A stretch of DNA of 32,401 nucleotides, from the NCBI GenBank assembly GCA_021791755.1, contig JAJYWA010000011.1, forward strand, positions 6,838 to 39,238, read 5' to 3'. A model generated the notes under the pieces. It was not told where the DNA came from. It saw only the letters and a list, made by a program, of their open reading frames with translations, and made no database searches. Each line of letters starts with the position of its first letter. Within the stretch, counting starts at the first letter, position 1. Below, piece by piece: positions 2,967 to 32,401 of the stretch. Both the position numbers and the translations under genes were made by a program. The DNA comes from Actinomycetes bacterium. Lineage in GTDB: Bacteria; Actinomycetota; Acidimicrobiia; Acidimicrobiales; JAJZXF01.

Positions 2967-3500
2967 GTGGAAGACCTTCTCCTCGACGCCTGCGTCGCAC
3001 TCAACCTCCTCGCCTCGGGCGTTCACCTCAGCGAGCTCGCAACCGCGTCCGAAGTCCGCTTCCTCATGACCACCGTCGTCGCCACCGAGATGTTGTGGCT
3101 GGATCCACTTGATCCGTCAGGCACGCGAGAGCGCTTCGACAGGGACGCTCTCACCGCCCGAGGCGTGACGCTCGTCACCCTTGGTGATGACGAGTCGGAG
3201 CGATTCGTCGAACTTGCTCGCTACGTCGATGATGGCGAAGCGTCCACGATCGCCGTCGCGATCCATCGCGGGCTCCGCGTCGCCACTGACGACCGGAAGG
3301 CGTTCCGACTGGCAGCCAGCCAATCCCCTCCCGTCGAGGTGACGAGAACGACGACGCTCCTGAGACGATGGGCGGACACCTCGGGCGCTCACGGTGAGCA
3401 CGTTCGCCAAGTCCTCCAAGCTGTTCGGACTCGGGCGAGCTACGTCCCTCCTCGAGATGATCCCCATCTCGACTGGTGGACCTCGGCGACCGGAGCATGA
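2967..3500 (+). CDS. PIN-like domain protein (putative RNase/toxin)
   Basis: N-terminus LLLDACVALNLLAS and later GEASTIAVAIHRGLRVATDDRKAFR fit the PIN acidic-residue pattern; GTG start 21 nt after the preceding stop. Confidence 0.7.
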   Translation: MEDLLLDACVALNLLASGVHLSELATASEVRFLMTTVVATEMLWLDPLDPSGTRERFDRDALTARGVTLVTLGDDESERFVELARYVDDGEASTIAVAIHRGLRVATDDRKAFRLAASQSPPVEVTRTTTLLRRWADTSGAHGEHVRQVLQAVRTRASYVPPRDDPHLDWWTSATGA

Positions 3501-8400: not shown

Positions 8401-8556
8401 GAGACGGTCTTCCAGGATCACCTCGCGATAGTTGGATCGCTCAGCCCGTGCCTCGCCCGGCGCTATCTCTGGTCCGTACAGCACGTCCCAGTCGAGGTCG
8501 GCCAGGTAGTCAAGGCAGACCTCTTCAACGCCGGACTCTGCGATGAACGACTTCAC
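5452..8556 (-). CDS. hsdR: Type I restriction endonuclease subunit R
   Basis: 1034 aa; N-terminal nuclease region ([24 protein letters not shown]), helicase motifs [35 protein letters not shown]. Confidence 0.96.
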
Positions 8557-9784
8557 ACCGCGTCCTCAACGAGATGTTCCGCATCACGGACACGAAGTTC
8601 ACCAGACATCAACTTAGGGAGGAGCGTGTCGCGGAGGGTGGCGAGTATGGAAGTCTCATACTCCAGCTTGACTACGAGCTGATACAAGGGTTCCGCCGCG
8701 TTCATCCACTGATCGATAACCCTTGCAGGCGGAGTGTCGAATCCAATCGGTCTAAAATTCGCTTTACTGATCTCCTGGAACGTCGTGCCGTTGGCACGAT
8801 CCTTAATCTCGGCCATGTGGTGAGCTACCCACTGCCAAAGGTACAGATTGGGAACGGCGCCCAAGGAGTTCAAAGCTATGAAGCCTTGGTTGATTGCAAG
8901 TGGCACCTCGGCAATTGCCAGATAACCAATTGGTGCTCTGGAGGACAGAAGAACCGTTCCACGCGGAAGGAGCCCGGAGCTGATCTGCTGGAGTCCCTGT
9001 TCGGTGATGGACCTCTCCGTTCGAAACAATGGAGTCGAGGTAAGTCGCGACAGGTCTTTCGGGGTTGCCCAACTGATCGAGCCATCCCAGTAATCTGCGA
9101 CGGAGGTCCGTGGAGTCGAGCCACCAACGATCTTCGCCACCTCACTTATCGGCTGCTGTAACCACTCCGCCGACTCACTTGATGCATCCTCCCAGCTTGC
9201 TCTTATTAGAGATTCGAGGAGGTCTATCTGAGACCGATTCGCCTCGATCTTGTCGTCGAGCGCCCCGAGGACCTCTGCGATCGCACGCTGCTCGGAGAGG
9301 GGGGAACAGGAATAGCGATCGCCTGTAAGCTCGTAAGCGGTTGACTGATCGCTGGCACTCCGGTCTGTGACGTGTTCCGAAGAAGGGCATGCTGCCCTTC
9401 GGGAGAGCAGAACCAGTAGTAGACGTATTCTGGGAGAACGCGCTCTTCGTCAATCGTCGCCTTCATTTGACTCTGCGAGACAAGGTAGAGCGGGTATCGC
9501 GGACGTCGCGGTACTAGAGCCACCTGTCCCAGCGTGCCTCGATGGGTGAAGACTAAGTCACCAGGTCGGGCAATGGACGCCGACAGTTCCTCCGCTTTAT
9601 CTTCATCAACGAAAACGACATCGGAATCGTCGAAGCGGTTTCCGCCAAGGTTCTTTCCTCGAAGCACTGGAACACCCGACGAGCGGAAATTCTCCTTCTT
9701 GATGCGCGAGCCGAAAGGCCCCATCGCAAATGCGCGGCCACCAGAACCAAGCTGGGAAAGCTGCACCTCCGGCCAGCCGGTCAC
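8553..9784 (-). pseudogene. hsdS: Type I specificity subunit S, split into two frames (TRD1 9224..9784; TRD2 8553..9140)
   Basis: Both halves are HsdS-like (TRD1: RIKKENFRSSGVPVLRGKNL...LRNTSQTGVPAISQPLTSLQAIAIPVPP; TRD2: VAKIVGGSTPRTSVADYWDGSISWATPKDLSRL). The linking sequence PLSEQRAIAEVLGALDDKIEANRSQIDLLESLIRASWED is intact in the other frame after a C6 run at 9299-9304. Confidence 0.88.
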
Positions 9785-11364
9785 TCGCTTACCTCCAGTC
9801 GCCCCAGAGCACTACGGACCCGTCTCTGGAGTCGCTCGCTCTCCTCGAATGCCTCGTACAGCCGCTGCTTCAGTCGTGCGATCTTCTCCTCGATCGGTTC
9901 TCCGTCGTCCTCGGCATCCTCGGTGCCTACATAGCGACCAGGGGTCAGCACGAAGCGGTGTTCGGTGATCTGCTCGATCGTTGCGGAAGCGCAGAAACCT
10001 GGGACGTCCTGGTACTCGCTTTTGCCAGGTTCTCCACGCCATGCGTGGTAGGTGCTCGCGATTCTTCCGATGTCTTCGTCGGTGAGTTCGCGATGAGTCC
10101 GATCGACCATCGCGCCGAGCTTGCGGGCGTCGATGAAGAGGACCTCTCCCCGGCGATCTCGCCAGGCACCCTTCGCATGGCCGTTCTGCTTGCTTCGGTT
10201 GAGGAACCAGAGGCTCGCCGGTATCTGGGTCGAGTAGAAGAGCTGGCCAGGAAGTGCGACGATGCACTCGACGAGATCGTCCTCGACCATCTTCTGGCGG
10301 ATAGCCCCCTCGCCTGACTGCTGCGATGAGAGAGACCCGTTCGCAAGAACGATCCCCGCAACACCACGAGGTGAGAGCTTCGACGCCATGAGCTGGAGCC
10401 AGGCGTAGTTGGCGTTGCCGACTGGTGGAGCACCGTACTTCCACCGGGCGTCTTCCCGGAGCTGATCGCCTCCCCAGTCCGAGATGTTGAACGGCGGATT
10501 GGCGAGGACGTAGTCGGCCTTGGGGTCGGGGTGCAGGTCCTCGTGGAATGAGTCGCCCCAGCGGGGTCCGAGATCGGACTCGATCCCGCGGATGGCGAGG
10601 TTCATCTTGGCGAGACGCCAGGTCGTGTCGTTGAGTTCCTGCCCGTAGACAGCGATGTCGTTGCGCTCCCCACCGTGCGCTTCGACGAAGCGCTCGGACT
10701 GGACGAACATGCCACCCGAGCCGCAGCACGGGTCGTACACTCGTCCCTGGTACGGCTCGATCATCTCGACCAGGAGCTTGACGACGCTCCGTGGCGTGTA
10801 GAACTCGCCTCCACCCTTCCCCTCCTGTGAGGCGAAACGACCGAGGAAGTACTCGTACACCCGACCGAGGAGGTCCTTCTCCCGGTACTCGGCAGCCCCG
10901 AGCCCGAGACCGGCGATCAGGTCCACCAGCTCACCGAGGCGGCGGACGTCAAGGCTTGGGCGCGCGTAGTTCTTCGGGAGCACGCCTCGAAGGCTCGGGT
11001 TCTCCACCTCGACGGCATCCATGGCTGCGTCGATAAGCTTCCCGATCTCCGGCTGCTTGGCTTTCGACTGGAGGAACTCCCATCGGGCCTCCGGCGGGAC
11101 CCAGAAGACTCCCTCGGCCGTGTACTCGTCACGCGACTCAAGGAGGTCGTCCGCGTGCTCACCCGTGATTCCCTCGCCCGCTAGGTCAGCAGCGAGCTCC
11201 TCCCGCCGCTCCGTGAAGGCATCGTCGATGTACTTGAGGAAGACGAGTCCCAGGACCACGTGCTTGTACTCGCTCGCGTCCATCGACCCACGGAGCTTGT
11301 CTGCCGCCTTCCACAGGGTGTCCTCGAAGCCGAGTGGCTCACCGTTGCGACTCTGTCGAGCCAT
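9781..11364 (-). CDS. hsdM: Type I DNA methyltransferase subunit M
   Basis: [18 protein letters not shown] and NPPFN motifs; N-terminal [27 protein letters not shown]. Confidence 0.97.
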
Positions 11365-14630: not shown

Positions 14631-16064
14631 CTACGTAGTACTCCGTGAATCGGTGGCGGGGCCGCTGGCGGGGCGAGCCGCTGGCGGGGCGGGGCGAAGC
14701 CGCTGGCGGCGCAACCGCGAGCATCGTGAGAGCAGCAGCCAGATCATCGCTAGGCCAAAGAGCAGCAGCAGCAGAGGCAACCCACCGCCGCCAAGCGGCG
14801 CCTGGTAGGGCGCCGGCCGGTACGAGGCCGGCACGCTCGAAGCGAAGCTCCCCTGCGGCCCAGGCCCAGACCCGGTGCCAGACCGAGACGCGCCCTGAAC
14901 CACCGACTCCCTTGCAGGGGCCGGGTCGACGCGACCGCCCGGGCCTGCGGGCTGGAAGCCAGGCTGGGTTGCCGGGCCAACCCCATTGCCGAGCACGGTG
15001 GAGCAGCCCGCTCCTGGCTTCACCGGTGGAAGGGCCGTGGGCGCCGCGTATGCAAGCGCCGAAGGCTGCTTTCCGGGGATGTACAGCCTCACCCGGATCC
15101 ACTCCTGGTTCGGGTTGCCTGGGTCCCCCGGGTAGAGGCTCTTGGCGGGTCCGGTCGGCGTGATGCCTCCGATGGCGCCGAAGAACTCCTGATTGATCGC
15201 GAGGCTCACATCCAGGTTCACGAGGTTCGGCGCAGACGCGATGTTCGCCGTGACATGCGCCGCGTCGTGCAGGAGACATCCGAGGTTCGGTCCCTCGCTC
15301 ACAAGGAGGCTGTTCACGTCTTGGGCAGCGTGCGCACCCTGGCTGAACAGGTCGACCAGCTGGTAGCGCTGCTTCGCGAGGACGCTGGCGAGCACGGACG
15401 TGTTCGACAAGGCTTGGCGGAGCTCGGGGCCGGCGATGGTGACGGCGTTGAGCACCGGTGGCGAGTTGGCGAGCAGAGACCGGAAGCTTTGCTGGTACTG
15501 GAGCATCTCAGCCGAGAACACCCTGCTCGCAAGGATGATCTGGCGCATGTCGCCCACCCGGCCTTGGAGCGCCGCCGACGCCTGACGGAGCACGGTGTTG
15601 AGATCGCCCTTTGGTATCGCGTCGAGCAGGCGCGTCGCTGTCTGGACTACGGCGCCGATCTGGGCCGGGCTCGGGTTCCCTGCGACCGGGACCACCGCGC
15701 CGTTGGCGATCGTCTTACCCGTGGGGCGGCCCAGCGGCACAAGGTCGACTTGCTGCTCACCGAGGTCATTGGCCAGGTTCACCTTTGCTGCGACGTTGGC
15801 GGGAACACGTGCTCCCGGATCAAGAGCCATCGTAACTCTGGCGCCGGATCTGGTCAGTTTCACCGAGCTGACCGACCCCACGTCAACGCCGTTCAGCGTC
15901 ACGCTGAAGTGCGGGTAAAGCCCTGAAGAGGTCGGGAGCACCGCCGAGATCTCCACCGGCTTGCGAAGCGGGTTCCCGAGGAGGGTCACCGTCCCGTAGC
16001 CGACCAGGAACGCGGTCGCGAGCGCAAAGACGACCAGGTTCACCACGACCCTGCGAGTGATCAT
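14631..16064 (-). CDS. Mce family protein (MceF position)
   Basis: MITRRVVVNLVVFALATAFLVGYGTVTLLG TM followed by a MlaD/Mce domain (VTLNGVDVGSVSSVKLTRSGARVTMALDPGARVP). ATG at 16064 overlaps the previous stop. Confidence 0.88.
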   Translation of the reverse strand: MITRRVVVNLVVFALATAFLVGYGTVTLLGNPLRKPVEISAVLPTSSGLYPHFSVTLNGVDVGSVSSVKLTRSGARVTMALDPGARVPANVAAKVNLANDLGEQQVDLVPLGRPTGKTIANGAVVPVAGNPSPAQIGAVVQTATRLLDAIPKGDLNTVLRQASAALQGRVGDMRQIILASRVFSAEMLQYQQSFRSLLANSPPVLNAVTIAGPELRQALSNTSVLASVLAKQRYQLVDLFSQGAHAAQDVNSLLVSEGPNLGCLLHDAAHVTANIASAPNLVNLDVSLAINQEFFGAIGGITPTGPAKSLYPGDPGNPNQEWIRVRLYIPGKQPSALAYAAPTALPPVKPGAGCSTVLGNGVGPATQPGFQPAGPGGRVDPAPARESVVQGASRSGTGSGPGPQGSFASSVPASYRPAPYQAPLGGGGLPLLLLLFGLAMIWLLLSRCSRLRRQRLRPAPPAARPASGPATDSRSTT

Positions 16065-17200
16065 CCCCCACCCCCAGGCGCCTGCCCGCCAGGTTGGGCC
16101 GAGCTCTGCGATGCGCCCGTATGGCATGACGTCGCCGGTTGGGAGGGGTTGGAGCCGCCATTCGGGATCCCGCACACAATAATGTCGTTCAATATTTGCT
16201 GGTAGTCATTTACCGTCCCGTTCTTGGTCGCCACGTCATGGCGATAGATCCACTCCAGGAGCCCGGCGAGTGCCGCCTGGTGGGTCGCGAGGACCCTGGA
16301 TACGGTGTAAAGCGTCTTCAGCTGCAAGGTCATCTGCGGGAAGTAGAGCTCGAGGAGGCTGCGCCCTTGGATCGAGAGGTTCTCCAGCGCCTGGAGCAGG
16401 GTCTCGAAGCGGCCCGCATCGGCGGCAAGGATCTCTGAGGTCTGGGCGAGGTTAGCGATCGCCTGCGCGTTCGCCTGAGACGAGGGCGCTAGCGACGAGC
16501 TGAGCTGGTCCATGCTCGCCACGAGCGATCGTATCGTCGCGTCACGGCTCGCGTACGCAGTCATGACCGTCGAGAGGTTCGACAGCAGGCTGTGAAGCCT
16601 TGCGCCCTCACCTCCGAACCCCTGGGCTCCGGCTGCGACGGCGCTCGCGAGATCCGTCGAGCTGATCGCCCCGAACACCCCTGCTCCGGCGGAGACGAGC
16701 TGTTGTATGCCGGGCAACGTGGTCGTGTTCGCTATACGGGCGCCATTCGCGAGCAGCGGCGCCTTCGCCGCCTTGCTGACATGCACCAGCTCTACGAAGC
16801 GCTGGCCGAATATCGCCGTACGACGGAGCTCAGCAGTTACGCCCGCAGGCACTCTCGCCGACTTCAGCAAGGACATCTTCACGAGCGCCCGCGTCCCGTC
16901 GAGCGATATCGAGCTCACGCTGCCGATCGTCACATCCGCCATCTGCACCGGAGCGCCGCTCTCCAGGTCGCTCACGTCCGAGAAGACCGCCGACACCGAG
17001 ATGCTCGAGGCAGCCTGGCCGCCGAGGAGCTGGCCGCCGAGGAGCTGGTAGGAGGCTGCGCCGACGAGCACTCCAACGAGAACGCCTGCAACCGCCACCC
17101 AGACGCCAAGGCGCCTTAGTCTGTGCCGACGGCCTGCGCCCGCCGGCGCCGCTGGCTCTGGCGCTGCTGGCTCTGCCGTTGGCTTTCCTTCGATCGTCAC
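16061..17200 (-). CDS. Mce family protein (MceE position)
   Basis: TM then VFSDVSDLESGAPVQMADVTIGSVSSISLDGTRALVKMSL MlaD domain; 4-nt overlap with mceD. Confidence 0.88.
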   Translation of the reverse strand: MTIEGKPTAEPAAPEPAAPAGAGRRHRLRRLGVWVAVAGVLVGVLVGAASYQLLGGQLLGGQAASSISVSAVFSDVSDLESGAPVQMADVTIGSVSSISLDGTRALVKMSLLKSARVPAGVTAELRRTAIFGQRFVELVHVSKAAKAPLLANGARIANTTTLPGIQQLVSAGAGVFGAISSTDLASAVAAGAQGFGGEGARLHSLLSNLSTVMTAYASRDATIRSLVASMDQLSSSLAPSSQANAQAIANLAQTSEILAADAGRFETLLQALENLSIQGRSLLELYFPQMTLQLKTLYTVSRVLATHQAALAGLLEWIYRHDVATKNGTVNDYQQILNDIIVCGIPNGGSNPSQPATSCHTGASQSSAQPGGQAPGGGG

Positions 17201-18945
17201 AACACCGTCTCCACTCGCTCGACCAACGTCACGATCGACCCGAACACCGAGCGCTCCGAGCTGCTCCGGCTGCGCTCTGGCCGCCTTGAATGCCTCGCGC
17301 CTCCGCCTGCCGCCGGGCCTCCCGCTCCCCCGCCCCCACCTGCGTTAGCTCCCCCGCCAGCCGGGCCTCCCGCTCCCCCTCCCGGAGCGACCTTCGGCAG
17401 CGGCCCGAGCAGCTGATCCGGCGATCCAAGCAGTCCCGTCCCCGGGCCCGTCCCTGGCTGCGCTGTCCCTGGCGCCGTGCCCGGCGACGTCCCGGTGCTC
17501 GATCGTCCCGGCGATGCCGTCCCTGGCTGCGCTGTCCCTGGCGCCGTCCCTGGCTGCGCTGTCCCTGGCGGCTGGGCTCCGGCAAGGCTCGACCGCTCCG
17601 AGCTGCTCAAACCGGGAATCGCGCCGAGGCCCGTAGCGAAAAGTTGGGCCGCAGTCGGCGCCACGGACCGCGATGTCCCCCCGGACCCCGCAGCAGACCC
17701 GGAGGGGCCGGCGGATGCCGACGAACCGCCCGAACCCGACGCGCCCGCCAGCCGGCCAATAATCCCCGGCACATAGCCAAGTATCCCGTCGAAGAACCCC
17801 GAGTACGGGTTGCCACAGCGCTTGAGCGTCGCTATCTGGGCCGCAGAGAGCCCCTGGGAATGGTGAGCGAGGAGCCGCCTGCATACCCCAGCAAGGCGAT
17901 CGCGTACGAGGCCAGCGACTATCGAGCCAGCGAGCCCCGGAGGCAGCTGGTTGTTGAGGTTGAGCCAATGATGCGTCGGATCGTACGCACGGCCTGCGGC
18001 CGCAAAGAGCGCAACCGCTGACGACATGGTCTCGTCCAGCGATGCGATGTTCCTGTCGATGGTGCGGCCAGCGGTCGTTATTACCGGTACCTCCTGCTGG
18101 ATGGTCGAGAGGTTTGGATCCAGCAGCGCCGCCAGCTGGCCGCTCATGTTCACGAGCTCCGTGATGCCCTGCGCCAGCTGCGTGTGGTTCGCCGCCACCA
18201 CGCTCGAGACGGTGTCATACTCCTGGATGAGGGCCGTTATCGCAGCGGTGTGTGATCTCAGCGCGCCGGTCAACCTTGCCAGGGCAGTCTCCAGATTGCC
18301 GATCTCGTCACCCTTGGCTGCGAGGAGCTGGAGCGTGCCGGCGGCGTTGTGGATCAAGCTGTTGAGCCCCGCACCCTGGCCGCGCAGGTCCTGAGCCAGG
18401 TAGTGGACCAGGTCTCCCGTCGCCTGCGGGTTGATCTTCCCGAGGAAGGACTGCATCGCTCTCAGCATCTGGTTCGCTGACACCGGCACTGAGGTATGGG
18501 CCTCCGGGATCACATTTCCCGGAGCGAGCCGCCGACCGCCGGTGAAGGCGGGCGCCAGGTCGACGCTCGGCTCGCCGAGTAGCTGCTCAGCGACCAACGA
18601 CGCATGGACCGCTGCGGGGACGATGGTCCCGGCGTCGATCTTCATGGACACCCGAACGTGGTCGCCCACGTTCTGGACGTCCGTCACCGAGCCGACGGTT
18701 ACACCGAGCACCTTCACCGCTGCGCCAGGGAAGAGCCCCTGAGCGCTCGCGAAGTCTGCGCTCAAAGGGTACGCCGGCGAGGAGCTCGAGACGACCAGCA
18801 GGCCGCCGAGCACAGCCACTGCGACGGCCGCCACGGACAGCATGCGCCGGAGCGAGCGCTTCGACATCTTCATCACGCCCATCCAGCGAGCCATCATCCC
18901 GGCCCTCCAGCGAGCCATCATCCCGGCCCTCCAGCGAGCCATCAT
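17197..18945 (-). CDS. Mce family protein (MceD position) with Pro/Gly-rich repetitive C-terminus
   Basis: MMARWRAGMMARWRAGMMARWMGVMKMSKRSLRRMLSVAAVAVAVLGGLLVV then MlaD domain (LFPGAAVKVLGVTVGSVTDVQNVGDHVRVSMKIDAGTIVP). ATG at 18945 overlaps the mceC stop as ATGA; internal starts are possible. Confidence 0.85.
   Translation of the reverse strand: MMARWRAGMMARWRAGMMARWMGVMKMSKRSLRRMLSVAAVAVAVLGGLLVVSSSSPAYPLSADFASAQGLFPGAAVKVLGVTVGSVTDVQNVGDHVRVSMKIDAGTIVPAAVHASLVAEQLLGEPSVDLAPAFTGGRRLAPGNVIPEAHTSVPVSANQMLRAMQSFLGKINPQATGDLVHYLAQDLRGQGAGLNSLIHNAAGTLQLLAAKGDEIGNLETALARLTGALRSHTAAITALIQEYDTVSSVVAANHTQLAQGITELVNMSGQLAALLDPNLSTIQQEVPVITTAGRTIDRNIASLDETMSSAVALFAAAGRAYDPTHHWLNLNNQLPPGLAGSIVAGLVRDRLAGVCRRLLAHHSQGLSAAQIATLKRCGNPYSGFFDGILGYVPGIIGRLAGASGSGGSSASAGPSGSAAGSGGTSRSVAPTAAQLFATGLGAIPGLSSSERSSLAGAQPPGTAQPGTAPGTAQPGTASPGRSSTGTSPGTAPGTAQPGTGPGTGLLGSPDQLLGPLPKVAPGGGAGGPAGGGANAGGGGGAGGPAAGGGARHSRRPERSRSSSERSVFGSIVTLVERVETVL
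17450..17585. repeat. Imperfect tandem repeats encoding PGTAPGTAQPGTA-type C-terminus of the MceD-position protein
   Basis: Repeated CGTCCCTGGCTGCGCTGTCCCTGGCGCC-like units. Confidence 0.75.
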
Positions 18946-18962
18946 CCCGCCCCTCCAACGAG
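18883..18962. repeat. 24-bp tandem repeat (three copies plus partial) at the mceC/mceD junction
   Basis: CCAGCGAGCCATCATCCCGGCCCT at 18883, 18907 and 18931 (last copy one mismatch), then partial CCAACGAG. Confidence 0.95.
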
Positions 18963-20180
18963 CAGCGGATCGAACAACGACGGAAGCGGCCCCCCTCCGA
19001 ACCCCGACCCCGCCGTCCCAGCGCTCCCCGCTCCCGCTCCCCCAGCTCCCGCACCCCTCGCGCTCACCGCTCCCGCTCCCACTCCCGCTCCCGCGGCGCT
19101 GCTCTCGGCGGGGACCGGTGGCCCGGTCTGCTCGCTGCACGGGAGCGGATCCGGACCCAGCGCGAGGTTCAGGGCCTGATCGAGGGCTCCGCACGGACCT
19201 ATGACTCCGTAGGCCCCAGCGGTCCCGAGCGTGTTGACGAACACGTTCGCCCAGGTGTTCGGCGTGTTGGCCTGCCCCGAATAGCCGATCGACGAGAAGC
19301 CCTTCACTGCGGAGCCGAGATAGGCGACACCCTCCGCCAGATCCACCTGGTGACGGCTCACAACCGATAGCGCCGAGCTCAAGTTGGACAGCAGCGAGTC
19401 GAGCTGGGGCCGGTTTGCCCCGATGACCCCGGCAGTCTGGGTCGCGACAGCGTCGATGTTCTGCACCAGGGCCGCAAGGCTCCCAGAGTGCTGGGCAAGT
19501 CCCGAGACGACTACATAGAGGTTCTCGACCAGCTGAACCAGTTGGTGGTCGCTCTCCGCCAGGGTCGATGACAGCGAAGTCGCAGCGTCTATCAGCGAGG
19601 AGAGCTCGCTACGCCGGGCGTCCAAGACGCCCGTGAACCTGCTCAAGCCTGAGATGATCGCCGCTACCTGAGCCTGCTTTCCCTTCGACACGGCAGCGAG
19701 ATCGGTGATCACCTTGTTGAGAGCAGATGCGTCGCTCCTGGCAAGGAGGTTCCCCGCAGTGTTCTGGAGCTGGTAGAACTGCTCAGGCACGGTAGTGCTC
19801 GTGATCATCGCCCCCGACCGAAGGGGCTTTGCCCACCCACTCTCCGGCTTCAGCCTCACCGCTATCAACCCGAGCAGCGTCTGGACGTCAATGCTCGCCG
19901 CAGTCCTCTCCGGCAGCACGACACCCCGGTCAATGTTCATCGCCACCACAACACTCCCTCCCGCGAGACGAACCCCGCTCACGGACCCGACCTTCACCCC
20001 GGCGAGCACCACCTCTGTTCCCGGGCGTACCCCCGCGGCGTCGCTGAACCGCGCCCGGAGAGGATATGTAGACGCGAAGACGCTGCGGTTCAGCGCAAGC
20101 GACGCTGCGACAGTGGCGAGCACCACGATCACGACGACTGCGCCGATCCGCTGCGGCCTGCGCTCGGTGAAGGCCTTCAT
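18942..20180 (-). CDS. Mce family protein (MceC position) with Gly/Ala-rich tail
   Basis: TM VVVIVVLATVAASLALN; MlaD domain FSDAAGVRPGTEVVLAGVKVGSVSGVRLAGGSVVVAMNIDRGVVLP. Confidence 0.88.
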   Translation of the reverse strand: MKAFTERRPQRIGAVVVIVVLATVAASLALNRSVFASTYPLRARFSDAAGVRPGTEVVLAGVKVGSVSGVRLAGGSVVVAMNIDRGVVLPERTAASIDVQTLLGLIAVRLKPESGWAKPLRSGAMITSTTVPEQFYQLQNTAGNLLARSDASALNKVITDLAAVSKGKQAQVAAIISGLSRFTGVLDARRSELSSLIDAATSLSSTLAESDHQLVQLVENLYVVVSGLAQHSGSLAALVQNIDAVATQTAGVIGANRPQLDSLLSNLSSALSVVSRHQVDLAEGVAYLGSAVKGFSSIGYSGQANTPNTWANVFVNTLGTAGAYGVIGPCGALDQALNLALGPDPLPCSEQTGPPVPAESSAAGAGVGAGAVSARGAGAGGAGAGSAGTAGSGFGGGPLPSLFDPLLVGGAG

Positions 20181-21298
20181 CCCCTCGCTCCTGACGCGGC
20201 GCCGCGCCCGCTGACGGCGTCAGCACCGCCGCCAGCGGATGCCGCTCCGCCGGAGATCTGGCGAAGCACCTGGCTGATCGATCCGCTGTTGGATGACGAG
20301 GGGGCATTCGTGGGCTGGTAGTACGTGCAGCTCGTCTCGTCAGCAAGGCAGGAGTAGACGGTCTGTATCTGGAACCACTGGCCCCACGCGGAGATCTCCG
20401 TGTACGGCGCCAAGCCGGATCCGAGCGTGCTCAAGTCCCTGCCAAGAGCCGCCTGGTGTGTTGCCAGCGTCGACGCCACGACCTCCAGGTTCGCCGCCAC
20501 GCCGTTCAAGTTCGATCGGTTCGCGACCTCGAGCGCGGCCAGCTCTCCGGCGGCCTTCGACAGGTTGACCACCACCCCGTCCAGCAGCGAGTTACGCGAC
20601 GCCAGCGACGCCGAGAGAGAGCTCAAGCTCCCTATCACCCGGGAGATGCTCACATCCCTCGCCGCAAGGGCCGTGAGGACCTGGTCGAAGTTGTCGATGA
20701 CGGCCCCGACCTGAGTGTTCATCGATCCGAGCGCCCCTGCGAGTGAAGCCGAGCTGTTCAGGAGATCGTTCAGCTTCGACGTGTTCCCCTGCAGCGCCGT
20801 CGCGATCGCCTCCACGAACACATTTGCCTGCTGCGGGTTTATGGCTGCGAGGAAAGGCCCGAGCGAATTGAGCAGCTTCCCGACGCTCGCGCTCGCTACG
20901 TCATGGCTGAGCGGGATCGTCGATCCAGGCGGCAGCGAGGGGCCGTGGCTGCCCGGGTAGAGGTAGAGGTACTGCTGGCCGAGGACATTGTGCCACTCGA
21001 GGCCTACCCTCGTGCTGCGCGGCACTCTCACGCCGGTCGTCACAGTGAAACCGACGAGCGCATGACCGTGCTGGACCCCGATCGACGTCACGCGACCCAC
21101 AGTCACACCAGCGATCTTCACGGCGTTCCCGGTCGTCAGCCCGGTCGCGTCCGCGAGCTGGGCCTCGTAGCCGGCCTGGTGGGAGAAGAAGCTGAAGTGA
21201 CCGAGCTTCTCCGCAAGGAGCGCCAGCAGCACGATGCAGACGGCGGCGAACACGGCGAGCTTCACCGCGTTCTTCCAGTGACGTGCGTCCCATCTCAT
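20177..21298 (-). CDS. Mce family protein (MceB position)
   Basis: LADATGLTTGNAVKIAGVTVGRVTSIGVQHGHALVGFTVTTGVRVP MlaD domain; 4-nt overlaps with both neighbours. Confidence 0.88.
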   Translation of the reverse strand: MRWDARHWKNAVKLAVFAAVCIVLLALLAEKLGHFSFFSHQAGYEAQLADATGLTTGNAVKIAGVTVGRVTSIGVQHGHALVGFTVTTGVRVPRSTRVGLEWHNVLGQQYLYLYPGSHGPSLPPGSTIPLSHDVASASVGKLLNSLGPFLAAINPQQANVFVEAIATALQGNTSKLNDLLNSSASLAGALGSMNTQVGAVIDNFDQVLTALAARDVSISRVIGSLSSLSASLASRNSLLDGVVVNLSKAAGELAALEVANRSNLNGVAANLEVVASTLATHQAALGRDLSTLGSGLAPYTEISAWGQWFQIQTVYSCLADETSCTYYQPTNAPSSSNSGSISQVLRQISGGAASAGGGADAVSGRGAASGARG

Positions 21299-22704
21299 CC
21301 GGCTGCTCCACCCCCTGTCAGCATGTTGAGGTAGGACTGGATCGACTTGCGAGCCGGCGCCACGGGAGCTCCGATCTGGGCGTAGAGGCTGTTCAGGAGC
21401 TGTTTGGCGGCTCGCGTCGCAGGCGACGTGGGGTTGGCGCCCACTGCGGCGCGTGTCGTGGGCGCGATACCGGGGCTTTGCCCTGCGACCCCAACTTGCG
21501 CCGAGGGGGCTGCGCCCTGAGCCGCGTCGAACGCGGCGATCTGGCTCGAGCAGTTCAGAGGGGTGCCCGCTCCAGATACGGCCTGCTGCAGGGGCTCCAG
21601 GTACGCGAGCCCTGGCTCCGCTGGTGCGATCAAGGAGCAGATAAGGTTATTGACCTGTGAGAACATGACGAACGTGTTGTAGTACGCCATCGTCGTGCCA
21701 CCCGGAAGCCTCTCCGGACCGGCGCCCTTGGCTATCCTCTGTGTGTACTCGTATAGGCCGCTCACGACCTGACCAAGGTTTTGCTGTCGGGCGAGCAGCA
21801 CCCTGGCGACGTTCGCCCCCTGGACGAGGAGTGTAACGATATCGGGTCGGAAGTCCTGGAGGAAGGTCGCCAAGCGTTGGGCGAAGGGAGCGACTTCGTC
21901 TAGGAAGCGCTGGAAGTTCGCAGCCGCTCGGTTGAACACCGGCAGCCCCTGGTTCGAGCTCGCTGATATCGCGTTCACAGAGGGACCGATCGGAGCGATC
22001 GCCGAGTTGAAGGCGCTGAACGAGTCCAGCGCCGTGATCTGCTGAGCTATCGTTGCGTCAAAGAGGCTCGCGAGCTTGGTCCCCTCCGCGATCGACGCTG
22101 CGATATTGGGTCCTTCTCCGCTCGACGCCCTGGCGAGATCGGAGACCACCGACCCCAGCGCCGGCGCGTCCAGCCTCTTGAGCAGCGGATCTGCGGCTGC
22201 GAAGAACTGCGTGATCTGATCGGACACAGCCGTGTGCCTCAGGTGGTCGCCGGGGTTGAGCCACGGTCCGGTCGACCTCGACGGAAATGCCAGGCTCACC
22301 GACTCGGCGCCGAACAGGTTCTTCGGCCGGATGGTCGCCACCGCCGCCACCGGGATCCGAAAACCGGGGTCGATTGACAACGTGATCCTCGCCTCGCGGT
22401 CTGCGAGGTTGATAGATGACACGCTGCCGACCCGCACACCCCGGTACGAGACACCTGATCCAGGATGGATCCCCTCGCCCGCCCGCGAGAACATCCCGAC
22501 GACGCTGTAGTTGCCCGAGAAGTCGCCGTTCACCGCCTTCACGATGAGCACCATCGAGGCGACGAGCACCGCCGCTGTAACGGCTGCAACAGCGAGGTGG
22601 ACAAGGCGCCAATCACGCCGGCTCCTCCTTCTCGCGCTCGTCGCCGGGATCCGCCCAGCCGTCGCCGGGACCTGCCCACTCGACGCTGGGACCCGCCGCC
22701 TCAT
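21295..22704 (-). CDS. Mce family protein (MceA position)
   Basis: ATG at 22704 (MRRRVPASS) overlaps the YrbEB stop; TM plus MFSRAGEGIHPGSGVSYRGVRVGSVSSINLADREARITLSIDPGFRIP. Track ORF 21295..23064 is over-extended. Confidence 0.87.
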   Translation of the reverse strand: MRRRVPASSGQVPATAGRIPATSARRRSRRDWRLVHLAVAAVTAAVLVASMVLIVKAVNGDFSGNYSVVGMFSRAGEGIHPGSGVSYRGVRVGSVSSINLADREARITLSIDPGFRIPVAAVATIRPKNLFGAESVSLAFPSRSTGPWLNPGDHLRHTAVSDQITQFFAAADPLLKRLDAPALGSVVSDLARASSGEGPNIAASIAEGTKLASLFDATIAQQITALDSFSAFNSAIAPIGPSVNAISASSNQGLPVFNRAAANFQRFLDEVAPFAQRLATFLQDFRPDIVTLLVQGANVARVLLARQQNLGQVVSGLYEYTQRIAKGAGPERLPGGTTMAYYNTFVMFSQVNNLICSLIAPAEPGLAYLEPLQQAVSGAGTPLNCSSQIAAFDAAQGAAPSAQVGVAGQSPGIAPTTRAAVGANPTSPATRAAKQLLNSLYAQIGAPVAPARKSIQSYLNMLTGGGAAG

Positions 22705-23630
22705 CCGACGAGCCTCGCTGTAGCGCTCGGTCCACCGAACATGACCATGGACATAATCAGGTTCAAGATCACGACCCCGATGATCGACACCCTGATCGCA
22801 CGCCCGGCGGAGACGCCTACGCCAGCGGGGCCACCCTTGGCCCGCCAGCCGTAGTAGCAGTGCACCAGCGTGACGACCACAGCAAAGACCACGGCCTTGA
22901 TCAGCGAGTACAGGACGTCGATCGGGGGCAGGAAGAGCTGGAAGTAGTGGTGGTAAGTCCCGGCCGACAACGAGAAGAACCGCGTCACTATCGCCTCTGT
23001 CGCGAGGTAGCTGGAGAAGAGAGCAGCCAGGTAGAGCGGGATCATGGTGATGAGAGCAGCCCACACCCGAGTCACCACGAGGTAGACCAGCGAGTCCACC
23101 CCCATCACCTCGAGCGCGTCGATCTCCTCAGAGATCCGCATCGCTCCTATCTGCGCGGTGAAGCCAGCGCCTACCTGTGCGGCGAAGACCTGGCCGGCCA
23201 CTATCGGAGTGATCTCTCGCGTGTTCGCGAGAGAGGAGATCACGCCGGTGAACGCCTGCGCTCCGATCTGCTGCAGGCCCGTGAAGCCTTCGAGGCCGAC
23301 CACCGTACCAGTGAAGAAGGTGATGGTGGTCACCACCAGGAACATGCCACCGCCGATGACAAGCGCTCCGGCGCCCATTGTGATGTCTGAGACGACGTTC
23401 GCGATCTCCTTGCGATAACGCAGTCCTCGCGGGAGTGCGACGAAGACCTTGACGTAGAAGTGGAACTGGTCATAGAGGCCGTCGAGCAGCGATCCCACAG
23501 AGGCCAGCAGTCGACTGGACAGCGGTCCCGTGGCCGGCGGTCTCACGGCCAGCGGTCCCGTCGTCGAAGACGACCGCACACGAGCCCGCGGCGCTGCTTT
23601 CGTGCCCGACGTGGCCTCAGTGGGAGTCAT
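22701..23630 (-). CDS. yrbEB: MlaE/YrbE-family ABC permease (second)
   Basis: Multi-TM permease with FTAQIGAMRISEEIDALEVMGVDSLVYLVVTRVWAALI, the YrbE/MlaE signature. Confidence 0.92.
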   Translation of the reverse strand: MTPTEATSGTKAAPRARVRSSSTTGPLAVRPPATGPLSSRLLASVGSLLDGLYDQFHFYVKVFVALPRGLRYRKEIANVVSDITMGAGALVIGGGMFLVVTTITFFTGTVVGLEGFTGLQQIGAQAFTGVISSLANTREITPIVAGQVFAAQVGAGFTAQIGAMRISEEIDALEVMGVDSLVYLVVTRVWAALITMIPLYLAALFSSYLATEAIVTRFFSLSAGTYHHYFQLFLPPIDVLYSLIKAVVFAVVVTLVHCYYGWRAKGGPAGVGVSAGRAIRVSIIGVVILNLIMSMVMFGGPSATARLVG

Positions 23631-23631
23631 C

Positions 23632-24411
23632 TCAGATCGCCTTCTGCGGGATGAAGTTGAAGTACACGACCGTGAGGACGAAGTTGACGAAGAACGCCAG
23701 GACGAACGTGACCACGACCGCCTGGTTCACCGCGTCGCCGACCCCCTTTGCCCCGCCCTTCGTGTACATCCCCTTGTAGCAGGCGACCATTGCGGCAATG
23801 AACCCGAAGGTGGCCGCCTTGAACAGGGCGATCCACAGGTCGGCCAGCTGGCTGAGCTCTGAGAACGTGGCGAAGAAGCTGCTCGTCGTGATGTGAACGC
23901 CACGAGTGCCGAAGTACCACCCGCCCGCTATCCCAGCTATGCTGACCAACCCGTCCAAGAGGACTGCCACGATGGTCGCAGCAACTAAGCGAGGGAGAAC
24001 GAGGCGATGGACCGGGTTGACGCCGATCACCTCCATCGCCGATATCTCGTCACGGATCTTGCGTGAACCGAGATCCGCGCACATCGCAGAGCCCCCGGCG
24101 CCTGCGATCAGGAGCGCCGTGGCAAGCGGCGCCTGCTCACGTACGACGGCGAGGACCATCGCAGCGCCGAGGTGCCCCTGGGCGCCGACCTGCTGGAGCA
24201 GCGACCCCACCTCCAGCGCTATCACCATTCCGAACGGCACCGAGATCAACATCGCCGGAAAGGTCGTGACCTTCACGAGGAACCAGGACTGGTCCACCAC
24301 CTCCGCCATCGGCACGCCCTTGCGAAACCCGAGCCGCACAGCTTCGAGCGCCAGCGCGAACATCCTGCCGATCTCCCCCAACCAATTCGACAGCTTGCCC
24401 TCGCTCACCAT
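23632..24411 (-). CDS. yrbEA: MlaE/YrbE-family ABC permease (first)
   Basis: GAGGSAMCADLGSRKIRDEISAMEVIGVNPVHRLVLPRLVAATIVAVLLDGLV; likely ATG at 24411 (MVSEGKLSNWLG). Confidence 0.92.
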   Translation of the reverse strand: MVSEGKLSNWLGEIGRMFALALEAVRLGFRKGVPMAEVVDQSWFLVKVTTFPAMLISVPFGMVIALEVGSLLQQVGAQGHLGAAMVLAVVREQAPLATALLIAGAGGSAMCADLGSRKIRDEISAMEVIGVNPVHRLVLPRLVAATIVAVLLDGLVSIAGIAGGWYFGTRGVHITTSSFFATFSELSQLADLWIALFKAATFGFIAAMVACYKGMYTKGGAKGVGDAVNQAVVVTFVLAFFVNFVLTVVYFNFIPQKAI

Positions 24412-24550
24412 GCTTGTACAACGTTGCGCACCCGCGATACTTGCGAGGTTCCGATGTTCACTCGCGAACATCAGGATCGCCCGTACGATTCGATCCCGCC
24501 TCCCGTAACGCTCGCCCGCGCGCGTGGCGCTCCGCGACGACCCCCAGACC

Positions 24551-26820: not shown

Positions 26821-27853
26821 GGTCGGTGCACGGTCCCGGTCATGATGACCGGTGCACACCGACACCAACCGATGGAGGCCACAGCATGCCAGGTGCACCC
26901 CTGTCCCTGCTCGAACACGAGGAGATCTCACTCGCTGTGACCGAAGACCGAGATACGCCGTGGGCCACGATCGCCCGGCGCGTTCATCGTTTCCCGACGA
27001 CTGTAATGCGCGAAGTGGTGCGCAACGCTGGACGTAGGGGCTACCGTCCTGGGCTCGCAGAGCGCCGATCGGAGAGCCAGCGTTGTCGGCCACGCCCACG
27101 TCGCCTGGAGATCCCTGGGGAGTTGCGGGAGCAAGTGATCCGAGAGCTCACCCTTGGTCGGTCCCCTGTGGCGATCTGGACCGATCTCGTGGCCGAGGAG
27201 GCCGCCGTGCGGGTCTGCGTCGAGACCATCTACCGGGCCGTCTACGACGGCGTGCTCGGGGTCAAGGCGACTGAATGTCTGCGCACCAGACGACCGAGGC
27301 GCCGCCGCCGCCAGGCTCGCCACGAGTCCGTCCGCCCTGGGCTGCCCAACATCGCCAGCCGCCCGGCGGCGGTCAACGACCGGGCAGAGCTCGGTCATTG
27401 GGAAGGCGACCAGATCATCGGCTACCGCAACCGCTCCTCGATGCTGTGGCTCACCGAGCGGGTGACCCGCTACTCCATCGGGGTCACGATGTCCTGTGGC
27501 TACGCCGGCGAGGCGATGCTCGCCGGGCTCGCAGACGGCCTCGAAAAGATCCCGGCCCACCTCCTGCGCTCGATCACCTTCGACCAGGGATCCGAGTGGG
27601 CCTGCTGGGAAACCATCGCCGCCACCTACGGCATCGACATCTGGTTCTGCGATCCCCACAGCCCGTGGCAGCGTGGTCAGGTGGAGAACCTCAACCGCCA
27701 GTGGCGCTGGCGGTTCCCACGGGGAACCGACCTCGGGAAGGTAGACCAGGCGGAGGCCGATCGGGCCGCCTCCATCATCAACGGCCAGCGCCGCCGAAGC
27801 CTCGACTACCAGAGCCCCGCTCAGCTGTACACTCGTGCTGCCGTGCAGTGACC
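26821..27853 (+). mobile_element. IS30-family insertion sequence
   Basis: Transposase bounded by imperfect terminal repeats GGTCGGTGCACGG (26821) and CCGTGCAGTGACC (27841-27853), 11/13 identical as inverted repeat. Confidence 0.7.
26886..27851 (+). CDS. IS30-family transposase
   Basis: ELGHWEGDQIIGYRNRSSMLWLTERVTRY, ITFDQGSEWACWETIAATYGIDIWFCDPHSPWQRGQVENLNRQWRWRFPRGTDL: IS30 DDE core. Confidence 0.95.
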   Translation: MPGAPLSLLEHEEISLAVTEDRDTPWATIARRVHRFPTTVMREVVRNAGRRGYRPGLAERRSESQRCRPRPRRLEIPGELREQVIRELTLGRSPVAIWTDLVAEEAAVRVCVETIYRAVYDGVLGVKATECLRTRRPRRRRRQARHESVRPGLPNIASRPAAVNDRAELGHWEGDQIIGYRNRSSMLWLTERVTRYSIGVTMSCGYAGEAMLAGLADGLEKIPAHLLRSITFDQGSEWACWETIAATYGIDIWFCDPHSPWQRGQVENLNRQWRWRFPRGTDLGKVDQAEADRAASIINGQRRRSLDYQSPAQLYTRAAVQ

Positions 27854-28009
27854 ACTGGAACTGGCCCTCCCTCAGCCATCGAGGCCGTTAATCCACGATA
27901 TGGCCTGAAGACGGGAGCCGGCCTGCTCCATGCTGACTATGACTCGAACGGCGAGGTCTCCCACGTGACCGACCCCTCGGGCAACACCGTATCGACCACC
28001 TACACCTAG
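27854..28009 (+). pseudogene. rhs/YD-repeat fragment
   Basis: NPRYGLKTGAGLLHADYDSNGEVSHVTDPSGNTVSTTYT* is YD-repeat-like; truncated by the IS on the left and by a stop on the right. Confidence 0.6.
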
Positions 28010-28164: not shown

Positions 28165-29766
28165 ATGATGGGTCCAGTCTCAACGTTGCTCACCGAACGG
28201 TCGTCCTTGCGTCTGTCCTGCATGGACCGTCTCTTGGTGGCGGGATACGTGCCCCGCTTACAGTCCGAGGGCTTGCTCGTGCGCTGGATGCTCGACCGTG
28301 GCGACTACCCCTCCCCGAGGGTCTTCGGCCGTGCTCAAGAGCGTATGGTTGACGCGGTCAAGCGCTTCGCAAAGGCTGAGGGCCTCGAGATCGTGACCTT
28401 CGCCAAGGGCGAGTCCAAGGAGGACCGGGCGCGCCCATTCCAGGATGCTGCCGAGCGCGCCGGTCGGGAGGCCGTGGTCTTGATCGGCCAGGCACAAGAG
28501 AAGATGGTCGGCGGGTTCCGTGGGACCAAGGACGGCGGTACTCCAAGCCACCCTCATTTCCACTTCACCCGCGCTCAGATGTTCGTGACGCACTACTACT
28601 TCTATATACGCGACGCGCAGTGGGGCCCCGTATTCATCAAGCTCTGCCCCTTCGCGCCCTTCCCGGTGCTGGCGTGCCTGAACGGCCACGAATGGCTCAA
28701 ACGCCGTCTGAGCGACACCGGTGTCGGGTTCAGCGCGTTGGACAACGGTCTCGGCGCCTGCGAGGACCATGTCGCAGCCCAGTCGTGGGCAGACCGCCTC
28801 GCTGCCGGTTGCATCCGGGAGCTCCTCGACCGATGGCTAGCGCTGGCGCCCAACCCGTTCCAGAGCATCGACACGGACCTCGGCTACAGCTACGACTACT
28901 CCTTCCGTCAGGTCGAGTTCTCCGACACGACGATCTTCGATCGTCCCCGCGACGCACGAGCCTGGTTCGACGCCGCGATCCGCGACCATCTCGACGTCGG
29001 CCGCCCCGAGAAGGTGTCGCTCACCTTCGACCGTCGAGTCACCTCGCGCACACCCGGGGCGTTCCGTACGAAGATCGTCACCCCGGGGGTCGACCCCCAC
29101 ATCCAGATCCACTACCGGTCCTCCAAGACCAAGGCCTACCTGAAAGAAGGCCACGGTGTACGGGTGGAGACCACGATCAACAGCCCTGCCGACTTCGGTG
29201 TGAGAAAGACGGTCAACCCCGAGAACTTCGCGGCGCTCAAAGAGATCGGCCGGGCGACCAACGCCCGGTTCCTCGATGGCCTCGGTGAGCGATCGGCCCC
29301 ACCTCCTGACACGACCGCCTTCGAAAGTGTGGTCATGCTGTCGGTCCATGACGGCAACAAAGCTCCCGGACTCCGTTTCGGGGAGCCGCGCGCGCAGGCG
29401 TTGCTCGCGTCGATCGTGGCCTTCTGCCACCTCATCGGTGGTCTCACCAACGCAGGGCTCGTCGCCTCGATGCGCTCGCTGCACGATCCTTCATACAGCA
29501 GCCGCCAGGCGACCTACGACCTGCGCCGTCTCAAGCAGAAAGGGTTCATCTACCGTGTTGCCAACCGCAACGTCTATCGACTCACCCCCACCGGACACGC
29601 CCTGGCAGTAACGTGCACCAAGCTGTACGCGCGCGTCATCCTGCCCGCCACCTCGGGCTTCGACGAGCCCATTGATCCACCCGGAGAGCTACAACGACCT
29701 ATCATCGTGGCGTGGTGCGTCCTGAAAGCTGGACCAGACCTGCGGGTGAGAGTCCCGTCCGGGTAA
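28165..29766 (+). CDS. Uncharacterised protein with C-terminal winged-helix-like region; 3' end runs into a group II intron
   Basis: 533 aa ORF; ...SYSSRQATYDLRRLKQKGFIYRVANRNVYRLTPTGHALAVTCTKLYARVILPA is wHTH-like. Codons after 29714 are encoded by the intron 5' end. Confidence 0.8.
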   Translation: MMGPVSTLLTERSSLRLSCMDRLLVAGYVPRLQSEGLLVRWMLDRGDYPSPRVFGRAQERMVDAVKRFAKAEGLEIVTFAKGESKEDRARPFQDAAERAGREAVVLIGQAQEKMVGGFRGTKDGGTPSHPHFHFTRAQMFVTHYYFYIRDAQWGPVFIKLCPFAPFPVLACLNGHEWLKRRLSDTGVGFSALDNGLGACEDHVAAQSWADRLAAGCIRELLDRWLALAPNPFQSIDTDLGYSYDYSFRQVEFSDTTIFDRPRDARAWFDAAIRDHLDVGRPEKVSLTFDRRVTSRTPGAFRTKIVTPGVDPHIQIHYRSSKTKAYLKEGHGVRVETTINSPADFGVRKTVNPENFAALKEIGRATNARFLDGLGERSAPPPDTTAFESVVMLSVHDGNKAPGLRFGEPRAQALLASIVAFCHLIGGLTNAGLVASMRSLHDPSYSSRQATYDLRRLKQKGFIYRVANRNVYRLTPTGHALAVTCTKLYARVILPATSGFDEPIDPPGELQRPIIVAWCVLKAGPDLRVRVPSG

Positions 29767-30503
29767 TCGCCGGAGAGCCCGGTAGCAGGCCCCGGTTCGT
29801 CGTCGAGAGGCGGCGGGCTGAGCGGGGGGCGTCGAAAGCCTCTTTGGAGGGAGCAAGCGTGCGGGAGGTAGGACCACCCGGTCCGAGTCCTGCAGCCTCG
29901 TCACATTTACAACGGGTGAGCCGAGCCGCTCATGTCACGGCGAAGGCCCATGTCCGACCTCCTGGCCAGCTCCGGAGATGCCCCTGGTCGGGTCCCCCCG
30001 GGGTACGGGGAGCGGCACGTACGCAACGGTTTGGTTCGGAACAGGAGAGGCCCGTCTTCCCAGCCTCGTCAGCAAAGACCGCTCGTATAAGCCAGTGGCG
30101 AAGTCGAGCGGAGGGAAGCGGGAGTCCGACGGGGTCATAGTACTGATGATCGCTGCGAGAAACGCAGCAGGAGGGAAGGGCCCCGACTTCGGTCACGCTG
30201 GTGTCGGAGTCGTCACGTGCGAGGACATGACCGGGACCGCCCGGTCCAATCATCCCGGCGGGCGTTCGCCCGTCGTCGAAGCACGACGGCTCCGAAACCA
30301 GCTATGGGCTACGGCCAAGTTGTCTCCTCGGCCCCGATGTGCTGTCGATGGTTCCAGGTGCGATGACTCCGCATCTGGTGGTAGTGGGTCGGGATCGAAG
30401 CGAGGCAGCGTAACCATGCTGAGAAGACCGTCGGTGAGCTGTGTGCGGGAGAATCGCATGCACAGTTCGAAGGGCGGGTGCTGGAAACGGAGCAACGCTG
30501 TTC
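29715..30503 (+). ncRNA. ORF-less group II intron (boundaries approximate at the 3' end)
   Basis: Starts GTGCGTCC; contains AAGTCGAGCGGAGGGAAGCGGGAGTCCGACGGGGTCATAGTAC typical of D3/D4 regions; domain V GAGCTGTGTGCGGGAGAATCGCATGCACAGTTC at 30436-30468; domain VI-like GGGCGGGTGCTGGAAACGGAGCAACGCTGTTC. No reverse transcriptase ORF. Confidence 0.8.
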
Positions 30504-30663
30504 GGCGTGTCATGAGCTCCAGGTCGGTGCGCTGAAATGCCACCTCAAGGACCAGGCCGCGACCCTGCCGCAGAGCCGAGCCACCGCGCCAGCACTCGAC
30601 CCAAGGCGAAGCTACGAACGCGAGCTCGACCAGCTGATCGAACGAGCACACCTCGCGGCCTGA
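30504..30663 (+). CDS. Predicted 3' exon of the 533-aa ORF after intron splicing
   Basis: Joining 29714 to 30504 reads in frame: ...PIIVA-W-ACHELQVGALKCHLKDQAATLPQSRATAPALDPRRSYERELDQLIERAHLAA*. Confidence 0.55.
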
Positions 30664-30734
30664 GCCCGTCTCGACCCTCCACCGGCCCACACCCGTACTG
30701 CGCTCACCGCTCAAAACTTGACCCGAAAGTGCAG

Positions 30735-32401
30735 ATGTTGGTCCCCAAGTGGGGCTACGACACCTCAGGCCAGAAGACCTCGAAGACCCTTCCCTCCGGG
30801 GCCAAGACCAGCTACAGCTACAACCAGATCCATGAGCTGACAGGAGTCTCCTACTCAGACGGCGCCCTGCAGCAGAGCTACACCTACAACGCAGACGGCC
30901 AGATATCCTCTTCGACCGGAGCCTCTGGTACGACGAGCTACAGCTACGACTCCGAAGGACAGCTTGTCGCAAAGAGCCTCGACCCGGACTCTGATCTGTC
31001 GACGGAGTCCTCCACCTCCACCCCTGACTCTGACTCAGCTTCTGCGGCGTTCTTGGAGGCATCGAGCATCACCTACTCCTATGACCCGATAGGAGAGCTG
31101 AGCGCCGTCGGATACCCAGGTGGCCAGAGCGTGAGCTACTCGTATGCCAATGGGCTCATGTCCTCGGTGACAGTTCCACTCCCTGGCACGACCTCTGACA
31201 CGACCACGTTTTCCTACAATCCGTCCTCACGGCTCACCCAGATCTCCTACCCCTCGTCCACCGACACCTACGCTTACTACGGCTACAACCCCTCCGGTCC
31301 CATGACCTCCACCGAGGTCGACTCTCCAGGAGGCAGCTCGTCTACCTCGAACGTCTACAACTACTCAGGCCTCCTCTACGCCTCCGACTGGAACACCAAA
31401 CAGAGCTTCACCTGGACCTACGATCCCTCGCTGCGCATGAGCCAGCCGGGGGCCAACTCCTATACCTACGATCCCGCAGGGCGCATAGCTACACAGGACA
31501 TGGCATCTGGTCCGTCCTTTGCGTTCACGACCAACGCGGACTCTCAGATCACACAGGTCCAGGCGTCCTTTTCTCCGCAGCCAACGATGACCGAGTACGC
31601 CTCCTGGAACAGCTCAGGAGAGGCAGTATCTGTGTCTTCTGCTTCTTCTCCTCCCGCTAGTGACTGCGGATTGACGAGCCCGGAGACCTCATGCGCGTCC
31701 TGGAACGCGGCAGGAGAGCTCACGAGCACTATAGAGGCCCCACAGAGCACGTCATCTACAGCTACAACCGCTGACTACACCTACTCTGCCTCCGGGCTCT
31801 TGAGCTCTGTTCAAGGATCATCTCCTCCTCCAGGGTGTCCTTCTACTGGATCTGCTGTGCACCTCGTATGGTCTCATCAGCTCGCTTCTTCACCAAAGCT
31901 CATCTACGAGGGCAACTCGACCTGCTGGTATGACATCATCTACGGACCTCAGGGACGTGCGATAGAGCAACTCTCGTGCACGAGCGCCTCTGGAGCTGTG
32001 ACATGCGTTCCTAGCTACCTAACAACCGGTCGCATGGGATCTGTGCACGGGGTCATCAGCTCTTCTGGATCCCTTACAGACGCCTACGGGTATGGTCCCT
32101 ACGGGACCACCTACAACCTTGCAGGCGCCTCGCCCCCATTGATCGGCTTCGACGGATACGCCTACATAGGAGCCCTCACCGGCACGAGCTTCTACTACCT
32201 CATCAACCGCTGGTACTCCTCTTCGATGAAGGGCTTCGTCTCACTGGACCCAGCCCAGAAGACAACCGGTGCGCCATATGGGTATGCGAACGACAACCCT
32301 GTCACGAACACGGACCCGACAGGGCTCGGGCCATGCCCGTTTGGAGTCTGTCTTGGGTTCCATCCAGGCAACAGCCTAAAAGGCCTCGCCAACTTCGGAG
32401 C
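30735..32401 (+). CDS. RHS/YD-repeat protein, partial at the right window edge (5' end probably lost)
   Basis: Continuous stop-free frame with repeated YxYD/YTYN motifs (WGYDTSGQKT, SYTYNADGQISS, SYSYDSEGQL, YTYDPAGRIA) and the RHS core end FYYLINRWYSSSMKGFVSLDPAQKTTGAPYGYANDNPVTNTDPTGLG. Confidence 0.88.
   Translation, partial: MLVPKWGYDTSGQKTSKTLPSGAKTSYSYNQIHELTGVSYSDGALQQSYTYNADGQISSSTGASGTTSYSYDSEGQLVAKSLDPDSDLSTESSTSTPDSDSASAAFLEASSITYSYDPIGELSAVGYPGGQSVSYSYANGLMSSVTVPLPGTTSDTTTFSYNPSSRLTQISYPSSTDTYAYYGYNPSGPMTSTEVDSPGGSSSTSNVYNYSGLLYASDWNTKQSFTWTYDPSLRMSQPGANSYTYDPAGRIATQDMASGPSFAFTTNADSQITQVQASFSPQPTMTEYASWNSSGEAVSVSSASSPPASDCGLTSPETSCASWNAAGELTSTIEAPQSTSSTATTADYTYSASGLLSSVQGSSPPPGCPSTGSAVHLVWSHQLASSPKLIYEGNSTCWYDIIYGPQGRAIEQLSCTSASGAVTCVPSYLTTGRMGSVHGVISSSGSLTDAYGYGPYGTTYNLAGASPPLIGFDGYAYIGALTGTSFYYLINRWYSSSMKGFVSLDPAQKTTGAPYGYANDNPVTNTDPTGLGPCPFGVCLGFHPGNSLKGLANFG

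Follow-up and report, generated by a model that had tools for sequence, protein, structure and literature searches.

The window, i.e., the whole stretch of 32,401 nucleotides that was analyzed, lies on contig C9 of genome G000 (2.67 Mb, 193 contigs). As judged by eye, its minus strand carries a type I restriction locus with hsdR (5452-8556), hsdM (9781-11364) and a specificity gene (8553-9784) that is present as two open reading frames, 8553-9140 and 9224-9784, as well as an mce-like operon (14631-24471) with several MCE/MlaD-like and two permease-like open reading frames. Inspection by eye also revealed pieces of a YD/RHS-repeat gene at 27275-28009 and 30720-32401, which flank the gene treated here, and an IS30-like transposase (26826-27851) beside it. 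As RHS pieces are present on both sides, this gene and the transposase seemingly reside inside a broken RHS gene. The gene itself is interrupted by a group II intron, and the following features were assigned:

28165-29714, plus strand: 5' exon of the host gene, from its start to the intron, encoding a member of an uncharacterized family of ~535 amino acids (open reading frame; intron-less homologues)
29700-29714, plus strand: insertion-site motif TATCAT-CGTGGC-GTG (TANNNT-N6-NTG), directly before the intron (motif present at 44/49 sites of the family)
29711-29714, plus strand: IBS1 (CGTG), pairing with EBS1 at 29931-29934 (covariation in the family)
29715-30605, plus strand: group II intron without open reading frame (ORF-less), 891 nt (Rfam matches and four divergent 3' flanks)
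29740-29876, plus strand: domain I-IV core (Rfam match to RF02003)
29925-29941, plus strand: EBS1 hairpin GCCG-CTCATGTCA-CGGC with EBS1 CATG at 29931-29934 (conserved loop, covariation)
30280-30425, plus strand, approximate limits: domain IV with leftovers of a deleted reverse transcriptase (RT) gene (alignment with the RT-bearing intron L044)
30436-30468, plus strand: domain V with AGC triad and bulge (RF00029 match, fold)
30472-30602, plus strand: domain VI, arms 30472-30484 and 30589-30602, bulged A30599 (fold, covariation)
30603-30605, plus strand: intron 3' terminus AAG, at which RT-bearing relatives have TAC or ATG/GTG (comparison with copies)
30606-30663, plus strand: 3' exon encoding (W)RSYERELDQLIERAHLAA followed by the stop (aligns with the C-termini of the intron-less homologues L024 and L029)

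The assignment as an ORF-less group II intron is sound, since two Rfam models match and no RT lies in between. The intron starts at 29715 with GTGCGTCCTGAAAGC, its first nucleotides GTGCG agreeing with the GUGYG of group II 5' ends. Close downstream, RF02003 (group-II-D1D4-4) matches over the full length of the model with 72.1 bits (E 4e-14), and domain V is matched by RF00029 at 30434 with 40.0 bits, which is exactly the cut-off of that model. In the list of open reading frames of the window, none between the intron 5' end and domain V encodes an RT. With regard to the GTGCG end, domain V, the lack of an RT, the interruption of a protein-coding gene and the proposed comparison with group II intron models, the original prediction, made from the sequence alone, is therefore confirmed.

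This does not apply to the 3' boundary. The predicted element of ~789 nt ending at 30503 is 102 nt too short. Four insertions of window-type introns in three genomes are homologous through CTCGACCCAAG (30605) and diverge immediately thereafter. Full-length ORF-less copies reside on contig C4 of genome G032 (87-88% identical to the window) and contig C19 of genome G555 (88.5% identical). Similarity between the G032:C4 copy and the window passes 30503, covers a further 102 nt up to CGCCAGCACTCGACCCAAG (30605) and ends abruptly there. The 3' flanks GCGAAG, AGACAG, AAGTCG and TAGGCG all start directly after CCCAAG; AAGTCG is the continuation of the 3' end found on G032 contig C130 and TAGGCG that of the copy on G555:C19. 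At G032:C4, the flank AGACAGCTCCTC opens a small antitoxin-like gene (RQLLLRVPDDIHRRLAARA), and a PIN-like open reading frame was noted by eye as the next one. Because four different flanks begin at the same base, the intron 3' end is placed at 30605; as the same G occurs at both borders, 29714-30604 is equally possible, i.e., an ambiguity of one nucleotide persists. The alternative that the intron ends at 30503 and that 30504-30605 is exon sequence coding for 34 residues appears extremely improbable. The reading frame is indeed open from 30504 to the stop, but this is due to the 102 extra nucleotides being a multiple of three. The four independent flanks starting after 30605 speak against this end, as does the fact that the 102 nt accompany the intron at unrelated sites, such as the one before the antitoxin-like gene in G032. 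Furthermore, the 34 residues occur in none of the homologues, and domain VI pairs across the 102 nt with compensatory changes.

Domain VI is formed by GGGCGGGTGCTGG (30472-30484), which pairs with CCAGCACTCG-A-CCC (30589-30602) over 13 bp and leaves A30599 bulged, 6 nt before the intron end. All 13 pairs are present in the window, the copies from G032 and G555 and the RT-bearing cousin L103, and 12 of the 13 are present in L117. Compensatory changes are evident at one pair (T-A, G-C, C-G) and at another (G-C, A-T), and the bulged A is kept across the compared copies. In the window lineage, about 100-104 nt are enclosed by the helix, so that most of the formerly supposed exon lies inside it; the enclosed segment of the cousins is slightly shorter. 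The Rfam alignment places the end of domain VI at 30568; the pairing that this implies is unsupported, and the placement was rejected, as the covarying helix ends at 30602. Group II introns usually terminate in AY, a consensus that is not strictly defining. The window intron deviates from it, as it ends with AAG (AA if shifted by one); CCCAAG is the end typical of its lineage, whereas cousins end with CCCTAC, in line with the AY rule. An atypical 3' end had been correctly foreseen, the suspected degeneration had not: the 13-bp helix is intact. A further peculiarity in this region, ~140 nt of extra sequence between domains V and VI, was observed in the glyA-like intron of genome G728 (L219, about 2960-3110).

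In the host gene, the intron is located about 19 codons ahead of the stop. The reading frame is open from 28165 and, as listed in the original prediction, runs 17 codons into the intron when unspliced, giving 533 amino acids. Joining of 29714 with 30606 yields a predicted in-frame protein of 535 amino acids ending in LQRPIIVAWRSYERELDQLIERAHLAA. Precise removal of the intron restores the frame as had been proposed, albeit with the junction 29714/30606 rather than 29714/30504, and a product of 569 amino acids must be dismissed because the intron accounts for 34 of its residues (ACHELQ...APALDPR). The empty-site comparison for the host gene is one at the protein level and involved intron-less homologues with 36-40% identity from other genomes of the same order. 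Among them, L024 aligns with residues 5-535 of the predicted product up to its own last residue and ends in RLEGTITHLVQKAGLAA; the homologues extend to a C-terminal ...GLAA that resembles ERELDQLIERAHLAA, just as the homologue check suggested at the outset had anticipated. Host-type proteins (L024, L026, L027, L029, L030) form a family of ~550 amino acids, several members of which are encoded near contig ends. Searches in Pfam, NCBIfam, PADLOC and PHROGs yielded no convincing match for this family, and the AlphaFold model of the host protein is poor (mean pLDDT 52). Possibly, a winged helix is present near the C-terminus of the family.

From these comparisons we infer that splicing restores the 535-amino-acid protein in vivo. 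That splicing would choose between two C-termini is speculation, as nothing here supports regulation. It is rather unlikely that the element is a dead remnant that does not splice, in which case the host gene would either end early with 533 amino acids or be a pseudogene. Such a remnant would be compatible with the non-canonical AAG end and with the loss of the RT in a genome without an assembled intact RT. On the other hand, the catalytic parts are intact, domain VI is conserved, the in-frame junction with its homologous tail has been retained and multiple copies exist in other genomes.

Information about the origin of the intron was obtained by comparison with the intron L044 of genome G044, the protein of which is a group II RT/maturase (TIGR04416). 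Relative to L044, the copies in the window, G032 and G555 all lack ~1.08 kb of the RT gene at the same place, with remnants of both ends kept. Copies at different sites share this deletion, as is characteristic of introns mobilized in trans. In G000, RT sequences comprise a broken copy on contig C2 and copies on C51 and C64 that end at contig edges, the one on C64 being a 3' piece; a complete RT was not found among these assembled sequences. The window intron arose from an RT-bearing intron via internal deletion of the RT open reading frame, and the ORF-less form has reached several sites in several genomes, probably with the help of an RT that a related intron supplied in trans. Mobilization in trans appears to be the simplest explanation of the spread and has been demonstrated experimentally for ORF-less introns in Thermosynechococcus elongatus (PMC2882425). 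The 5' part of the window lineage resembles the L044 type and its domain VI the L103/G443/G408 type, which hints at recombination between introns of these two types.

The conserved hairpin at 29925-29941 can be identified as EBS1 with good confidence. In the window, its CATG pairs with CGTG of the 5' exon via one G.U pair, a positive outcome of the EBS/IBS check that had been recommended. Within the family, the usual EBS1 is CAUG, complementary to CATG before the insertion point; the loop reads CACG, CACA or CACT at several GTG sites and can be CATT at GATG or AATG sites. Across 41 rows, the EBS1-IBS1 pairing score amounts to 148 of 164 even though two false anchors (the first rows of L092 and L227) are included and lower it. 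Shuffled pairings gave a mean of 135.2 and a maximum of 145.5, and the observed score was reached in 0 of 20,000 shuffles, an outcome that is not a strict probability because the related sequences are not independent.

For the insertion site, we compared the sequences upstream of 49 distinct insertion points, mostly from Actinomycetota; the 5' match L007 was discounted as a partial intron. TANNNT-N6-8-NTG precedes the intron directly at 44 of the 49 sites, with a spacer of 6 nt (31 sites), 7 nt (11 sites) or 8 nt (2 sites); among 2450 positions further upstream, TANNNT occurs just 3 times. The 5' exon ends with ATG at 36 sites, GTG at 10, CTG at 2 and GCG at 1, and 80% of the sites with a 6-nt spacer have a C at position -4. 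No -35 motif was seen upstream of the 49 sites. The same pattern extends to Nannocystis (Myxococcota) and a planctomycete bin.

Many relatives of the window intron sit directly behind the start codon of a gene, and the frame downstream of the intron is usually that of a known gene from its codon 2 onward (hemB, queA, purL, xseB, glyA, antitoxins). Matches to curated families begin near the first residues for porphobilinogen synthase, QueA, PurL, XseB and a MobA-like protein; products resembling MetF, sigma factors and antitoxins were recognized by eye. Relatives without the intron exist for a glyA-like gene in the G728 genus; they align without a gap through the junction and show a single GTG, which places the insertion point immediately after the start codon. 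The RT-bearing introns terminate in CTACCAATG or CCAGTG and carry their own start codon in frame with the gene. Some of them (L049, L050, L057, L191) end with GTG and, as far as both ends could be read, occupy GTG start codons; in L057, the EBS1 loop moreover reads CAC. The pairs ATG/ATG and GTG/GTG suggested a target-site duplication of NTG. This explanation was rejected, as ORF-less copies carry AAG at ATG as well as GTG sites, the glyA and xseB introns combine GTG with ATG and a single GTG is present at glyA sites without the intron. The window copy shows the family motif, but within coding sequence and not directly after the start codon of a gene, and further sites away from gene starts are those of G555 and L060.

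Taken together, an 891-nt ORF-less intron that originated by deletion of the RT open reading frame, spread to multiple sites in trans and belongs to a start-codon-targeting family is very probably the correct explanation of the locus. What the family recognizes at its sites is a separate question. Most transcription starts of Mycobacterium tuberculosis are preceded by a -10 motif TANNNT without -35 consensus, and a quarter of the genes, including most toxin-antitoxin genes, are leaderless (PMC3898074). The intron sites look like leaderless promoters followed by start codons. We give an even chance to the proposal that the family homes to the transcription start regions of leaderless genes: the EBS1 loop would read the start codon like the initiator anticodon (CAU), insertion would require a -10 element 6-8 nt upstream, perhaps in an open promoter bubble, and the AUG at the end of the intron itself would keep the gene translatable whether spliced or not. 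Both the use of this AUG and the dependence on the RT are inferences from sequence. The window intron would then be an ORF-less offshoot with enlarged domain VI at a promoter-like sequence inside a gene. Alternatively, TANNNT may be read as DNA by the intron ribonucleoprotein, gene starts being hit since leaderless starts resemble the target, a possibility to which we assign somewhat less than an even chance. The lack of a -35 signal would agree with direct reading of DNA, but promoters of M. tuberculosis likewise have no -35 consensus. The occurrence of the motif at sites other than gene starts, also put forward for direct reading, fits either explanation. A spacing of 6-8 nt is looser than expected from fixed base pairing and matches the distance between -10 element and start in leaderless promoters (PMC3898074). 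This variability favors recognition of promoters.

ORF-less introns, enlarged 3' regions and mobilization in trans are known as such. The TeI3 introns of T. elongatus likewise lost the RT open reading frame at one place with remnants of both ends kept, and their copies spread with the help of RTs of relatives (PMC2882425). They differ from the introns described here in their target, and the window-type copies are spread over several families of one order and possess an enlarged domain VI. In introns of the Bacillus cereus group, the true 3' splice site is also located well downstream and mobility persists with the extra segment; there, 53-70 nt are added at the 3' end (PMC3261151), as opposed to ~100 nt within the domain VI hairpin in the window. 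For class C introns, a transcription-signal motif in the 5' exon similarly helps to define the target, which is a terminator or attC (PMC4424553) in place of a -10-like box plus start codon. C.te.I1 of Clostridium tetani contains start codons of downstream open reading frames within domains V/VI, and in B.a.I2 of B. anthracis the choice of the 3' splice site alters the protein made (PMC3919590). Unlike these, the present introns have no tandem domains V/VI, and it is their RT-bearing relatives that have a start codon at the intron end, which the window copy lacks. Full-text searches of open-access literature, which covers few subscription journals, and term look-ups in a review and a genome survey revealed no description of group II introns directed at a -10-like box with a start codon; this is weak evidence of novelty.

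For annotation, the window shows that an enlarged domain VI makes it easy to set the 3' end of an intron 100 nt short and thereby to invent exon residues. Beyond that, promoter-like boxes at start codons would give bacterial group II introns a second niche defined by a transcription signal, besides that of class C introns behind terminators. An intron of this kind would use the promoter of a gene and yet leave the gene expressed, even in the case of housekeeping genes. This suggests a testable link between transcription and retrohoming, and the sites of such introns could help to spot leaderless genes.
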